Assembly (NCBI RefSeq): GCF_019903425.1
Contig: NZ_JACHUZ010000013.1
Coordinates: forward strand, 810,087 to 874,086
DNA length: 64,000 nt
Reading direction: 5' to 3'
Source of the DNA: Vreelandella halophila
GTDB taxonomy: Bacteria; Pseudomonadota; Gammaproteobacteria; Pseudomonadales; Oleiphilaceae
Below the pieces are notes generated by a model. That model did not search any database. It was not told where the DNA came from and saw only the letters and a program-made list of their open reading frames with translations. The position numbers and the translations under genes are program-made. This document shows positions 36,377 to 43,791 of this stretch, in pieces. Position 1 is the stretch's first letter; every line of letters begins with the position of its first letter.

Positions 36377-37786
36377 ATGCACCCACAGACCCAAAACCGT
36401 GTAGTTTTCATCGCCATGATTCCCACCGACGACCGCCAGCAGCCCCAGAAAGGGCTCTTTGAGCTCTATCTCGAAGACATGATCAACCTGCGTCATCCAC
36501 TGGTGCGCATGGCCGAACGCATCGACTGGCAACAGTGCGAAGAACAGTTCGGTCCCTATTGGTGTCCGGATAACGGTCGCCCAGGCCATCCCATCCGGCT
36601 TCACGTTGGGCTGCAGATGCTCAAGCACATGCAGGGGCTGTCCGACCACGAGCTGCTCGATCAGTGGGTGGAGAACCCGTACTGGCAGTATTTCTGCGGC
36701 GAGTCGGTGTTCAAGCATGAGCCGCCGATGGACGAGTCCACCATGGGCCGGTTCCGTCGTCGTATTGGCGAAGATGGCGCGCGAGCGCTTTTGAAGATGA
36801 CGGTGGAGTTGGGTGAAGGCACGGGCACGGTTGCTCCCGAGAGTTTCCGAGTGGCGGTGGCCGATACAACCGTGATGCCCAAGGCCATCGAGCACCCCAG
36901 CGAAGCGCGGCTGATGGTGCGCGCGCACCGGCGCCTGGTGAGCCGGGCCAAAGCGGACGGTGTGAAGTTCCGCCAGACCTACGAGCGCTCGCTCGATGGG
37001 CTGGTCATCCAGATCGGGCGCTACGCCCACGCCCGCCAGTTCCGGCGCATGCACAAACGGCTTCGCAAGCTCCATGGTTATCTGGGCCGTGTGTGCAATG
37101 ACGTTCGCCGCCAGCAACCTCATGGCCAGCGCAGCCAGGGACTGGATGAGGCGCTTTACCAGGCACTGTACCTGTGGCGCCAGTACGCCGAGCCTCAACA
37201 CCGGCCCAAGCTCTACAGCCTGCACGAGCCGGAGGTGGCCTGCATCGCCAAGGGCAAGGCCCGCACCCCCTATGAGTTCGGCAGCAAGGTCAGTGTGATC
37301 ACCACCGCCAGGGAGGGCTTTGTGCTCGACTGCCAGGCCCTGCGCGGCAATGCCTACGATGGCCACACGCTGCACCAGGGGCTGGAACGGGTGCATAAAC
37401 ACTGCGGCCAGCTGCCGGTGAACACCCTGGTCGACCGGGGCTATCGCGGCAGCGAGAGCACACCGCTGACCAACGTGCACATCACCGGCAAGAAGAAAGG
37501 CAACGGCACCGCCCACGCCCGCTACCAGCACCGGCGCAACAGCGTTGAGCCGATCATCGGCCACATGAAACACGAAGGCCTGCTGGATCGCTGCCACCTG
37601 CGCGGGCGCGAAGGCGATCGGGTCCACGCGGTGCTGTGCGCGGTCGGGTTCAACCTGAGGAAGGTGCTGCGCCGGCTGGCGCAGCTTTTTGGGCTTCAAT
37701 TGCTCCGGGCACTGCTGGCCGCAATCCATCAATCCGGGGTGGGTGTTGCCCGATCACAGCAACAGCTCACACCGGGAGCTGCCTGA
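36377..37786 (+). CDS. IS5-superfamily (DUF772-type) transposase
   Basis: This 469-residue DDE transposase is longer than that of the first IS and unrelated in detail. The N-terminal DUF772-type region reads GRPGHPIRLHVGLQMLKHMQ then LSDHELLDQWVENPYWQYF. Catalytic segments are VAVADTTVMPKAIEHP, NTLVDRGYRGSES, and RRNSVEPIIGHMKHEGLLDR. The frame is intact to a stop inside the terminal repeat. ATG 36377 is used; ATG 36416 (MIPTDDRQQPQKG) is an alternative and may be the true start. Transposition activity is plausible. Confidence 0.92.
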   Translation: MHPQTQNRVVFIAMIPTDDRQQPQKGLFELYLEDMINLRHPLVRMAERIDWQQCEEQFGPYWCPDNGRPGHPIRLHVGLQMLKHMQGLSDHELLDQWVENPYWQYFCGESVFKHEPPMDESTMGRFRRRIGEDGARALLKMTVELGEGTGTVAPESFRVAVADTTVMPKAIEHPSEARLMVRAHRRLVSRAKADGVKFRQTYERSLDGLVIQIGRYAHARQFRRMHKRLRKLHGYLGRVCNDVRRQQPHGQRSQGLDEALYQALYLWRQYAEPQHRPKLYSLHEPEVACIAKGKARTPYEFGSKVSVITTAREGFVLDCQALRGNAYDGHTLHQGLERVHKHCGQLPVNTLVDRGYRGSESTPLTNVHITGKKKGNGTAHARYQHRRNSVEPIIGHMKHEGLLDRCHLRGREGDRVHAVLCAVGFNLRKVLRRLAQLFGLQLLRALLAAIHQSGVGVARSQQQLTPGAA

Positions 37787-41473: not shown

Positions 41474-41920
41474 TTACTGCTCGCTCATGACCTGGAGCTG
41501 CACCGGTTCGCCGTCGCGCGTGAAGATGGCGAACTGGTCCAGGTTTTCACCGGTGGTGAGGGTCTGGGCCATGCGCGTGAGGTGTTGTTCGGTCTCGTCC
41601 TCGGCTGCGGGCTCGCCGTTGCGCCCGGGGAGGATGGCGGTCATCAGGAATTCCCAGTTGGTGCTGACCTGGTCCGCTTCTTCGACAATGTCCTTGAGGC
41701 GGGTCTGGGGTGTCAAGGGGAAGTCGCGGACCATGAGGGGCATGAGGGTGCCCTGGTCGTCCATTTCGGCGTGTTCGCCGCTGGCGGTTTTTTCCTGAAG
41801 GCGCTGGACGTGGATGAGGACGACCAGGAGTTTGGTGCCGGGGCCATCCATTTCGGACATTCGGGCGAGGTCGTCGAAGGTGGTGATTCTTGGTTCCGGG
41901 GTGAAGGTTTCTACCGTCAT
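41474..41920 (-). CDS. Hypothetical protein in the nar/moaA cluster
   Basis: This 148-residue cytoplasmic protein is strongly acidic, has no cysteine and no membrane span, and contains [20 protein letters not shown], a helical centre and a C terminus [19 protein letters not shown] 41920 is chosen for the GGAAGAG ribosome-like site; the frame is open 20 codons further. No family was recognised. Its place 10 bases before moaA and downstream of narI and the PPIase gene suggests a role in nitrate reductase maturation or expression, which is inference from context only. Confidence 0.7.
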
Positions 41921-41985
41921 GATCTGGGCTCTTCCGGTTGTTTGGCGTCTGTCACCAGACTGTAGTGTTGCTGCCGGCATTGCTA

Positions 41986-42078
41986 CAGGGGACCCCTTTC
42001 AGGGACCGCTGTGAACCCATCCATGGGCGCTGGCGCGATGACATCCTGTCATCGAGCCTCCCTGAAAGGGGTCCCCTG
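41986..42078. repeat. Structured intergenic repeat, copy 1 (93 bp)
   Basis: Perfect 20-bp arms CAGGGGACCCCTTTCAGGGA and TCCCTGAAAGGGGTCCCCTG enclose two further hairpins, CCCAT-CC-ATGGG and CGATGACA-TCC-TGTCATCG, so the whole folds as a three-way junction. The skeleton (CCGCT, then a CATCC loop, GCGCT, then an ATCC loop, then the closing arm) is shared with the element at 42980-43089. It sits between the hypothetical and PPIase genes, which are both on the minus strand. Confidence 0.85.
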
Positions 42079-42138
42079 CATCAATGCTCTAAACCCCGAA
42101 GGAGTCGCTGATTCCACCAATCGCAACATGTTCACCAT

Positions 42139-42951
42139 TTATTGCACCAGAGGGTTGTCAGCGCTGCTGAGGTCAATGCCCTCGATTCTGGAGCGGCCGG
42201 CAAGGATCTGGAGGTACTGGCTGACGGAGCGGCGCCAGACGGATTCCTTAAGATAGGTGGCGATCTTTTCTGTCACGGCCTCGTAGGGCAGCTGTTCGCC
42301 GCGCTGGCGTTCGTGCAGCCAGACCACGTGGAAGCCGTAGCGGGTTTCCAGTGGATGGGCGGAGAGTTCGCCTTCGGGGAGGCGGTCGAGGGCCTTTTCG
42401 AAGTCGTGTGAGGTGTCGCCTGGGCCGACGGTGCCCATGTCGCCGCCGGCTTCGGCGGAGGGGCATTTGGAGTGCTTGAACGCCAGCCGTGTGAAGCGCC
42501 CCGGGTCGGCCTGGCAGACGCGGATGATGCGGCGGCAGCGTTCGCGGGCGCTGACGCGGGCGTCGGCGTCGTCGGCCGGGGCCGGACGGAAGATGTGGGA
42601 GACGTGGTACCGGCTGGGTGAACGGAAGCGTTCGCGGTTGCTTTCGTAGTACTGGCGGCAGGCGGCTTCGTCCGGTTCCGGGTTGTCCAGTTCCTGGTCG
42701 AGGAGCTGGCGGATCTGGGCTTCTTCCTGGGTTTCCGCGGTCTGGCGGTCTTCACCGGTGATGCCCTGGCGTTCGGCCTCTGTGATCAGCATCGTGCGGA
42801 TGGACAGGGCCTTGGCGGCTTCTTTTCGGGCTTCTTCCAGGGACGGGGCCGGGTGGTATTGAATCTCCTGGTTGATCGCTTCTTCGGTAATGGTTCGACC
42901 GTTGATCAGGATTTCGCCGCCGGCGACCTGTTGGATGGGGATGGCTTGCAT
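42139..42951 (-). CDS. Parvulin-type peptidyl-prolyl isomerase (PpiC/NifM-like)
   Basis: This 270-residue protein has a helical chaperone-like N-terminal half (EEAINQEIQYHPAPSLEEAR) and a rotamase domain from about residue 128 (YHVSHIFRP, FTRLAFKHSKCPSAEAGGDM, TRYGFHVVWLHER). No signal peptide is seen, so it is probably cytoplasmic, as for NifM-like proteins associated with metalloenzyme maturation. It lies between narI and moaA on the same strand, which suggests it assists folding of nitrate reductase. ATG 42951 is chosen for AGAGGTA at 8 bases. Repeat elements flank it on both sides. Confidence 0.88.
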   Translation of the reverse strand: MQAIPIQQVAGGEILINGRTITEEAINQEIQYHPAPSLEEARKEAAKALSIRTMLITEAERQGITGEDRQTAETQEEAQIRQLLDQELDNPEPDEAACRQYYESNRERFRSPSRYHVSHIFRPAPADDADARVSARERCRRIIRVCQADPGRFTRLAFKHSKCPSAEAGGDMGTVGPGDTSHDFEKALDRLPEGELSAHPLETRYGFHVVWLHERQRGEQLPYEAVTEKIATYLKESVWRRSVSQYLQILAGRSRIEGIDLSSADNPLVQ

Positions 42952-42979
42952 GCTGCTACCTCTGTGTCTGCTGCAGGTC

Positions 42980-43089
42980 GGCCGCTGCCGGGGATGCTCT
43001 CCGGGAACCGCTACGAGCACATCCCTGTGCGCTACGCGGTGACCATCCATGGTCACCGAGTTTCCCTCCGAGCATCCCCGGCATCGGCC
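42980..43089. repeat. Structured intergenic repeat, copy 2 (110 bp)
   Basis: Outer arms containing TGCCGGGGATGCTC and GAGCATCCCCGGCA pair imperfectly over about 28 bases. Inside are GCACA-TCCC-TGTGC and the perfect GGTGACCAT-CC-ATGGTCACC. The order and spacing of hairpins match copy 1 while many stem bases differ in paired fashion. It lies between narI and the PPIase gene. Confidence 0.85.
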
Positions 43090-43107
43090 GCCCTATGATG
43101 TCGGGCT

Positions 43108-43791
43108 CTACTGCGGCCTTACGATCTGGTACCGCCGGGCCACGTATTCCACCGGCCAGCTCCAGATGTGCACCAGCCGGCTGAACGGGAAGGCGGTGAA
43201 CATGAGTAACCCGAGGAAGATGTGGGTCTTGTAGATCCAGTGCACGTCCACGATGTACTGCCATGCGCCGGCCTGGAAGGTGACGATGCCCTGGGCCCAG
43301 TGGGCGAGTTCGAGCATGACGGCGCCGTCCAGGTGGTCCATGGAGACGAACAGGGTGCACAGACCGGTGATCAGCTGCAGGTAGATCAGACAGATGATGA
43401 AGGTGTCCATGGGGCTGCTGTTGGCACGCACACGGGCGTTGAACAGCCGCCGGTACACCAGGTAGCTGAGGCCGGCGAAGCACAGCAGGCCGAACAGGCC
43501 GCCGGCGACCATGGCCATGATCTGCTTGGCGCCGGGAGTCATGCCCAGTGAGGTGTAGACCACCGTGGGCGTGAGCAGGCCGAACAGGTGGCCGAAGAAC
43601 AGAAGGAGGATGCCCACATGGAAGGCGATGCTCGCCCAGCGGAACGCCGGCGGGTTGCTCAGTGTCTGGCTGGACATGGCCCGCCAGGTGTACTGGCCGC
43701 GCTCGTAGCGCAGGAAGCTGCCCAGCAGGAAGATGGTGCCGGCCAGGTAGGGGCCGACGCCGAAGATCAGTTGGTTGATGTAGGTTTCCAT
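43108..43791 (-). CDS. narI: Respiratory nitrate reductase gamma subunit (cytochrome b)
   Basis: This 227-residue membrane protein has five spans and carries the two b hemes of nitrate reductase A. It begins YINQLIFGVGPYLAGTIFLL, and histidines in HVGILLLFFGHLFGLL and in the C-terminal HIFLGLLMFTAFPFSRLVHI supply heme ligands. NarI takes electrons from quinol and passes them to NarH. It follows narJ by 17 bases in the narGHJI operon. The length is normal. Confidence 0.97.
   Translation of the reverse strand: METYINQLIFGVGPYLAGTIFLLGSFLRYERGQYTWRAMSSQTLSNPPAFRWASIAFHVGILLLFFGHLFGLLTPTVVYTSLGMTPGAKQIMAMVAGGLFGLLCFAGLSYLVYRRLFNARVRANSSPMDTFIICLIYLQLITGLCTLFVSMDHLDGAVMLELAHWAQGIVTFQAGAWQYIVDVHWIYKTHIFLGLLMFTAFPFSRLVHIWSWPVEYVARRYQIVRPQ

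Follow-up and report, generated by a model that had tools for sequence, protein, structure and literature searches.

Palindromic MITE-like elements such as ERIC and YPAL are intergenic, 100–200 bp long and form long hairpins, and MITEs keep common terminal repeats. REPs are described, in the accessible part of Di Nocera et al. 2013 (PMC3733652), as hairpins of 20–40 bp that carry an unpaired GTAG tag and often have RAYT partners; the stem of CGTC-tagged REPs is 8–9 bp long and starts with A-T pairs, most of them end in a CCA tail, and TIRs flank Y1 genes.

Most Gammaproteobacteria use CsrA as a global regulator, and the way in which its regulon changes between species is an open question. According to the accessible text of PMC7652899, the SELEX consensus of CsrA is RUACARGGAUGU, RsmE complexes contain ANGGAN loops, and CsrB carries CAGGA(U/A/C)G and a total of 22 GGA. 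The same text states that a CsrA dimer bridges two sites 10–63 nt apart, with an optimum above 18 nt, and that most SELEX hairpins had four or fewer contiguous pairs.

The two elements analysed here, E1 and E2, lie in a nar cluster within the window, by which we mean the whole 64,000-nucleotide stretch of DNA under analysis. By sequence comparison they belong to an intergenic repeat family that is dispersed in Gammaproteobacteria and is gained and lost. We consider it probable that this repeat encodes, where transcribed, an RNA module with two sites that CsrA would bind.

Results

Two T-shaped repeats flank an isomerase gene

A preliminary description had reported two copies of one three-way-junction repeat around the isomerase gene, each with a long outer stem and two hairpins capped by ATCC-type loops, and both folds confirm this architecture (Table 1). 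The loop sequences CATCC/ATCC given there are those of the plus strand, but it is the minus-strand sequence, GGAUG, that is informative. The predicted folds, a long stem bearing two hairpins, are very stable. In E1, the innermost 20 arm pairs are perfect and two mismatches lie further out, and the arms of E2 pair throughout except for one 3x3 internal loop and one single mismatch. A broad covariance model (R2, see below) matches E1 at 41979–42085 (7.5e-15) and E2 at 42980–43089 (7.3e-15).

All features of the locus lie on the minus strand in the order narI, E2, PPIC-type isomerase, E1 and a small gene upstream of a moaA-like gene, and the minus strand, the direction of the nar and isomerase genes, is the sense strand of both elements. 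The ATG at 41920 of the gene downstream of E1 is kept in three aligned relatives, which places the end of E1 about 57 nt upstream of this ATG. Elsewhere in the window, a long ORF on the plus strand (36377–37786) resembles an IS transposase by eye.

Table 1 Features of the E1–E2 locus (positions in the window)
Feature	Position	Strand	Basis
E1, complete T-shaped repeat (28-nt arm + 53-nt core + 28-nt arm)	41978..42086	-	fold, arm pairing, R2 match
E1 arm on the side of the downstream gene; partner 42059-42086	41978..42005	-	fold
E1 arm on the PPIase side	42059..42086	-	fold
E1 hairpin II GGA (ACAGGAUGU), predicted CsrA site	42044..42046	-	fold
E1 hairpin I GGA (CAUGGAUG), predicted CsrA site, 21 nt from hairpin II GGA	42020..42022	-	fold
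E2, complete T-shaped repeat (28-nt arm + 56-nt core + 28-nt arm)	42979..43090	-	fold, R2 match
E2 arm; partner 43063-43090	42979..43006	-	fold
E2 arm on the narI side	43063..43090	-	fold
E2 hairpin II GGA (CAUGGAUG), predicted CsrA site	43046..43048	-	fold
E2 hairpin I GGA (ACAGGGAUGU), predicted CsrA site, 21 nt from hairpin II GGA	43022..43024	-	fold
Segment around E1 without match in relatives G002 and G004	41921..42136		alignment to relatives
PPIC-type peptidyl-prolyl isomerase gene, between E1 and E2	42139..42951	-	Pfam Rotamase
Nitrate reductase gamma subunit (narI-type) gene, upstream (sense) of E2	43108..43791	-	Pfam Nitrate_red_gam
Gene downstream of E1, without Pfam match	41474..41920	-	ORF, alignment to relatives

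A dispersed family in Gammaproteobacteria

A blastn search with E1 found 12 distinct places in its own genome (G000), E1 itself included. From 12 copies we built a covariance model, R1, which includes only 20 arm pairs. It gave 52 matches in the same genome, corresponding to 44 full-length places (E1 and E2 among them), one partial place, which is a copy with extra hairpins, and seven reverse-strand duplicates. In the 12-copy alignment, 18 of 36 pairs show two-sided changes, and the 56 two-sided cells compare with 15.2 +- 3.0 in shuffled alignments, none of 500 reaching 56; sliding the partner columns by 1–3 lowers the paired cells from 93.7% to 38–50%. With further copies in the genome and covariation above chance, the original observation clearly stands.

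The family extends well beyond this genome. R1 matched 21 of 58 genomes, the own one included, with up to 72 matches per genome under strict filters; fuller filters gave 37, 109 and 31 matches in three members of the genus (G002, G003 and G004). The broader model R2, built from 33 copies of many genera, matched 153 of 390 genomes of the order and 69 of 143 genera, copy numbers in this survey being lower bounds since at most nine candidates were scored per genome. A search of named genomes with the core pattern returned at least 119 stretches. The 80 matches listed come from Gammaproteobacteria as far as their titles tell, one title saying only Proteobacteria, and hosts among them are Marinobacter, Microbulbifer, Rheinheimera, Halomonas, Saccharospirillum, Stenotrophomonas, Luteimonas, Methylotuvimicrobium, Sedimenticola, Pectobacterium and Yersinia similis. 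Long arms (mean 28.5 bp) were read in 63 of 78 pattern matches; the script read the other 15 as having shorter or no arms.

A scan of the window gave no Rfam match for the repeat. With one query from a relative, phages and E. coli gave no match and plasmids one weak match (52% of the query, a Halomonas record); an origin from any of these was therefore rejected. No description of the family was found in open PMC papers, where core strings were searched as exact strings, and the accessible portions of PMC4666352, PMC12306157 and PMC12889724 hold nothing on it.

In a sample of 30 own copies, judged with a heuristic gene caller, the repeat lies between genes, as had been proposed, and the neighbours occur in every arrangement rather than being only co-directional. 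Outside the stem, on one side and about 36 nt before the R1 match, lies a conserved motif, tgTctC.aG.cT, with an EM score of 114 versus 38 in shuffled flanks; by eye, it falls near 41946–41961 in E1 and is often followed by TTGCAGG. Some variant copies hold approximately 80–100 extra nucleotides inside hairpin I together with further hairpins (G000 C13:1352579-1352766, loci L011/L015; the 121146 site on C14 of G004, locus L178). One of these hairpins carries a ACAGGAAGU loop on the sense strand, so that variants hold more GGA sites.

Gain, loss and inverted doublets

Most of the analyses below use 169 copies from four genomes, comprising all 44 full-length places of G000, 32 of the 37 matches in G002, 68 of the 109 in G003 and 25 of the 31 in G004. 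E1 is missing from G002 and G004: within surroundings that are 91–94% identical, 222 bp correspond to 18 bp in the former and 216 bp to 12 bp in the latter. The more distant G003 carries E1 at this position. Three copies of G003 (C5:113962, C5:117160 and C2:166255) face gaps in all three other genomes, and a fourth (C5:118754) appears likewise to face gaps in a partial alignment. In G004, E2 is reduced to a core-less palindrome, and a similar-looking core-less remnant occurs in G000 at the 121146 site; judged from the sequence, both read as imprecise central deletions.

These comparisons bear on two suggestions made for the locus. The first, a signal specific to the nar operon such as an RNA processing signal in the nar transcript, draws on the two sense copies that flank the isomerase gene inside the cluster. 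The 44 full-length places spread over the genome, only two of them here, refute it as a general explanation and make the nar position incidental, and two relatives lack E1, one of them also keeping only the core-less remnant of E2, although the genes around it align; we regard this explanation as scarcely credible. The second, a mobile structured repeat, gains support from the many copies, the empty sites in relatives and the variety of gene arrangements. Junctions of the empty sites are not exactly readable and no parent element was seen. Capture of the arms from the target is unsupported at the clearest empty site (117160), where the gap is only approximately 16 bp.

Close copies are mostly inverted, with their sense strands pointing apart. 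Among the 169 copies, pairs within 700 bp are inverted as (+,-) in 18 cases versus (-,+) in 2 and direct in none, orthologous doublets being counted repeatedly. Examples in G000 are 1431624/1431958, 401368/401840 and 1355386/1355647. Ten named loci also have copies within 350 bp of each other (L203, L208, L222, L237, L240, L241, L242, L250, L251 and L260, the partner copy in L240 being a weak match), and direct tandems are rare (L192 with four copies, L201 and L255).

Such doublets resemble those of REP-type elements, and the repeat might be a mobile palindrome acting at the DNA level, REP- or MITE-like, whose loops are read on single-stranded DNA by a transposase or recombinase, the likeness to CsrA sites being coincidental. 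Gain and loss at defined sites, the occurrence in every gene arrangement, the lack of a promoter signal and the greater likeness of cores within genomes (see below) fit this explanation as well. Against it, genes with the Y1/RAYT domain (PF01797) are absent from four of five genus genomes, namely the own genome and G001–G003 (G001 being only 68% complete), including those with 44 places and with 37 and 109 matches; G004 has two. In element-bearing relatives, the repeat was absent from each of 20 stretches of 6–12 kb surrounding Y1 genes. The presence of Y1 genes in relatives does not track copy number either, and a RAYT/REP origin is thus unsupported. Taking into account the conserved loops described next, we consider a DNA-level palindrome unlikely, though a serious candidate. 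A separate, classical REP-like hairpin (CTGTAGGAGC...GCTCCTACAG), recognised partly by eye, is present in the own genome although no Y1/RAYT gene was found there; it occurs at L011 1602-1663 and in the flanks of several copies.

CsrA-type loops on the sense strand

In the 33-copy alignment of many genera, the invariant columns include C.TCC.TG on the plus strand, the reverse complement of CANGGANG. On the sense strand, the invariant loop positions are thus CANGGANG, the recognition element of CsrA/RsmE. Two CA(N)GGANG motifs occur in the sense-strand core of 167 of the 169 copies and one in the remaining two, and 94.8% of shuffled cores have none and 5.2% one, the fraction with two rounding to 0.000. 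The spacing from GGA to GGA in the 167 two-site copies is 21 nt in 138, 20 nt in 27 and 13 and 22 nt once each, so that 165 copies, E1 and E2 included, fall at 20–21 nt. In the predicted folds, 142 of 169 copies place two or more nucleotides of each motif GGA in hairpin loops, and 97 place both GGAs there entirely; in 11 copies neither GGA is in a loop, and in 27 at least one is outside. The exact SELEX consensus is found in 35 of 169.

Among named copies, 99 of 116 matches were scored, giving two sites in 82 and one site in 17; of 26 named copies missed by the motif-based pattern, 21 still have two. These loop counts, like those for the inner 20 arm pairs, carry some circularity, since the covariance models that retrieved the copies already include the loops and inner arms. 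No such circularity affects the agreement between the family and the CsrA motif as to which positions are fixed and which are free: the invariant positions of hairpin I equal CANGGANG including its two free positions, and the motif recurs in hairpin II, which weighs further against a coincidental likeness in a DNA-level palindrome.

Mismatches in the arms point to the same strand. On the plus strand, outside arm positions 4–6, we counted 82 A.C, 47 C.T and 28 C.C mismatches versus 13 G.T, 3 A.G and 6 G.G, where random single changes would give equal numbers. The bias recurs at arm positions 20–27, outside R1 (130 versus 16), and in named copies (156 versus 36). On the sense strand the favoured mismatches become G.U, G.A and G.G, the tolerable kinds; loop motif and tolerated mismatches thus both indicate the minus strand as sense. 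RNA appears the natural reading of this bias, and single-stranded DNA structure or strand-specific damage to C would also fit. The preliminary description had offered a protein-binding cruciform as well. The conserved part does resemble a site for protein binding. Judged by the loop motif and by the strand bias of the mismatches, however, the binding form would be a single strand, most naturally RNA bound by CsrA, rather than double-stranded cruciform DNA.

The own genome holds one csrA gene, canonical over 53 Pfam positions. Co-occurrence is uninformative as a test because 372 of the 390 genomes of the order have a CsrA gene. Two of the 153 repeat-bearing genomes in the order survey (G218, 88% complete, and G260, one contig and 99% complete) lack a detected CsrA gene and would count against a CsrA-binding module, unless the gene was missed. 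Against it counts also that the stems of hairpin II are often long, unlike those of most SELEX hairpins reported in the accessible text of PMC7652899.

Transcription signals and orientation to genes

Around the 169 copies we found no promoter-like (-10-like) enrichment and no T-run signal after the stem, TTTT occurring within 25 nt in 5 of 169 copies and on the other side in 7 of 169. A hidden promoter or terminator in the repeat thus gained no support. For 104 non-orthologous copies, taken in the sense frame with neighbours called heuristically, both neighbours are in sense in 36, only the upstream one in 26, only the downstream one in 20 and neither in 22, at best a weak bias. Transcription of the copies is therefore an assumption.

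The same counts weigh on a third explanation, in which the repeat is a structural mRNA element independent of CsrA and its stem insulates or stabilises transcripts as a terminator, a block to 3' exonucleases or an RNase III site. The very stable folds and the sense orientation of both E1 and E2 in the nar cluster agree with such a role. The scarcity of T-runs and the near-random placement and orientation relative to genes do not, and a structural role would account for the stem but not for the invariant loops, making this explanation improbable.

Private arms and shared cores

In the 169 copies, Watson-Crick pairing of the arms is 0.80–1.00 at positions 0–27, 0.52 at position 28 and 0.24–0.37 beyond, where inner pairs are favoured because the models used to find the copies contain the inner arms. 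The register was chosen by script on the first 24 positions and R1 covers 20 arm pairs; positions 24–27, free of both, pair at 0.92, 0.89, 0.93 and 0.83. In G000 alone the lowest value inside the arm is 0.73, and in G003 pairing falls more slowly (0.62 at position 28 and 0.38–0.49 up to position 34). Positions 4–6 form an internal loop in one subfamily. In E2 and other copies of the subfamily this recurrent 3x3 loop reads TCC/TCC on the plus and GGA/GGA on the sense strand, possibly tandem G.A pairs.

Comparison of orthologous copies reveals how the arms change. Across 60 two-sided orthologous pairs, we counted 238 arm pairs within 28 bp in which both bases had changed and Watson-Crick pairing was preserved, versus 70 one-sided changes; over the whole stem of 50 orthologous pairs with arms at least 70% identical, the numbers are 144 versus 85. 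The two G at arm positions 15–16 show no two-sided change in any of the 60 pairs. The two-sided changes comprise 154 of transversion type and 93 of transition type (flanks: 237 transversions and 252 transitions), and this lack of a transition excess is unlike what a route through G.U would give.

The divergence of the arms is similar to that of the adjacent DNA. Among G000, G002 and G004, arm divergence is 0.124–0.162 versus 0.176–0.182 in the adjoining 45 nt, and between G000 and G003 it is 0.266 versus 0.278; small groups deviate (G002–G003, three pairs, 0.464 versus 0.271; G003–G004, one pair, 0.125 versus 0.230). Hypermutation of arms, suggested by one pair with flanks 98.5% and arms 73.5% identical, was rejected since adjoining DNA diverges equally in the larger groups. 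As most changes are nevertheless paired, the arms may be corrected in part by templating one on the other, for example by template switching. The two-sided changes would fit such copying at the DNA level and selection on RNA equally well.

Cores behave differently. In 120 comparisons the core resembles a paralog more in 76, the ortholog more in 28 and both equally in 16, whereas the arms are closer to the ortholog in 84, to a paralog in 30 and tied in 6; the best of many paralogs has an edge over a single ortholog, a handicap equal for arms and cores. In the 28 comparisons with G003, the core is never closer to the ortholog (24 paralog, 4 ties), and the arms divide into 12 ortholog, 15 paralog and 1 tie. 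At some loci the arms were kept and the cores swapped, as in G000 C13:3843 and G004 C4:9692 with identical arms and cores 50% alike.

Within one genome, the arms of different copies are nearly unrelated, the closest pairs being no closer than shuffles reach; copying of arms from paralogs was rejected for this reason among the fetched copies. The mean nearest-neighbour similarity of arms is slightly above shuffles in G000 and G003 (0 of 300 shuffles each) and G002 (12 of 300), not in G004 (209 of 300). On this sequence comparison, cores tend to follow the genome and arms the locus, which reads as concerted evolution of cores alongside locus-bound arms.

Discussion

The sequences directly support (i) a repeat family, its gain and loss between relatives, its predicted structure, conserved loops and the strand preference of mismatches, and (ii) arms that are specific to each copy and show compensated changes, cores that resemble each other more within a genome than across genomes, and a canonical csrA gene in the own genome. 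From these we infer that copies are transcribed, that CsrA binds them and that this binding matters. In the mechanism that we propose, the sense strand would fold as a three-way junction. A closing stem of approximately 28 bp, with a sequence of its own at each locus, would carry two hairpins, and their loops would display CA(N)GGANG, the recognition element of CsrA/RsmA/RsmE, at a distance of approximately 21 nt. A transcribed copy would most likely offer a single CsrA dimer two points of attachment. In cis, a copy would tie its host transcript to CsrA, here that of narI, the isomerase and the downstream gene; in trans, CsrA would be divided among tens of copies and in part titrated by them. 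Arm complementarity would be restored partly by copying one arm onto the other, presumably through template switching.

Repeats that come and go and carry CsrA-like loops may rewire the CsrA network. We more tentatively suggest that a mobile family has spread CsrA modules as a distributed sponge, changing the set of CsrA targets with each gain or loss, the stems being copied at the DNA level, the cores exchanged and the parts evolving in concert; this wider scenario is possible, if somewhat doubtful. If true, a two-site CsrA module that is gained and lost would offer a direct route for regulon change. The family is also a natural experiment on palindrome evolution, with locus-private stems that change like adjoining DNA and mostly still pair.

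The repeat shares features with several described systems. It is intergenic and forms hairpins like the MITE-like elements ERIC and YPAL, but its copies have the core in common and not the terminal arms, which vary from locus to locus; instead of shared terminal inverted repeats, we find that even the closest arms within a genome are no more alike than shuffles can be. An intrinsic terminator, with its T-run after the stem, is likewise not what the copies resemble. Like REP/BIME/REPIN elements, the copies are dispersed intergenic palindromes, often inverted doublets, with a wide host range. REPs, in the accessible description (PMC3733652), are short tagged hairpins, whereas the repeat is a three-way junction of approximately 110 nt with private arms, and where GTAG occurs in some copies it lies inside the stem of hairpin I, not unpaired at the foot (by inspection). 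As in CGTC-tagged REPs and TIRtrons, copies are self-complementary and often paired, and by eye a CGTC is frequently seen next to hairpin II when the sense strand is read; inspection of the hairpins against the accessible text of PMC3733652 found no 8–9 bp stem with an A-T start, CCA tail or Y1-flanking position. GTAG- and CGTC-REPs and TIRtrons, as described there, thus differ from the repeat in size, tags and partners. Kinship with a TIR family of S. maltophilia may exist, TIRtrons being set apart here by their description in the text.

The closest likeness in the loops is to CsrB/CsrC, RsmX/Y/Z and Alteromonas Aln1a-c (PMC5864184, accessible part), structured non-coding RNAs with GGA-loop hairpins of the same consensus, predicted to hold CsrA/RsmE. 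Nearly all copies of the repeat share two GGA sites, both largely looped in most. CsrB-type RNAs carry many sites each, whereas the repeat has two as a rule and more in a few variants; unlike them, it has private stems, gain and loss between species and no Rfam match. CsrB-type RNAs have a promoter of their own, Gac/BarA-UvrY control and a terminator; around the copies no promoter was recognisable, -10-like and T-run signals being unenriched. CsrB, RsmX–Z and Aln1a-c are, as far as these sources describe them, few dedicated genes with many sites, and the repeat provides tens of dispersed two-site copies per genome, which, if CsrA binds them, would make the family a distributed counterpart of CsrB-type sponges.
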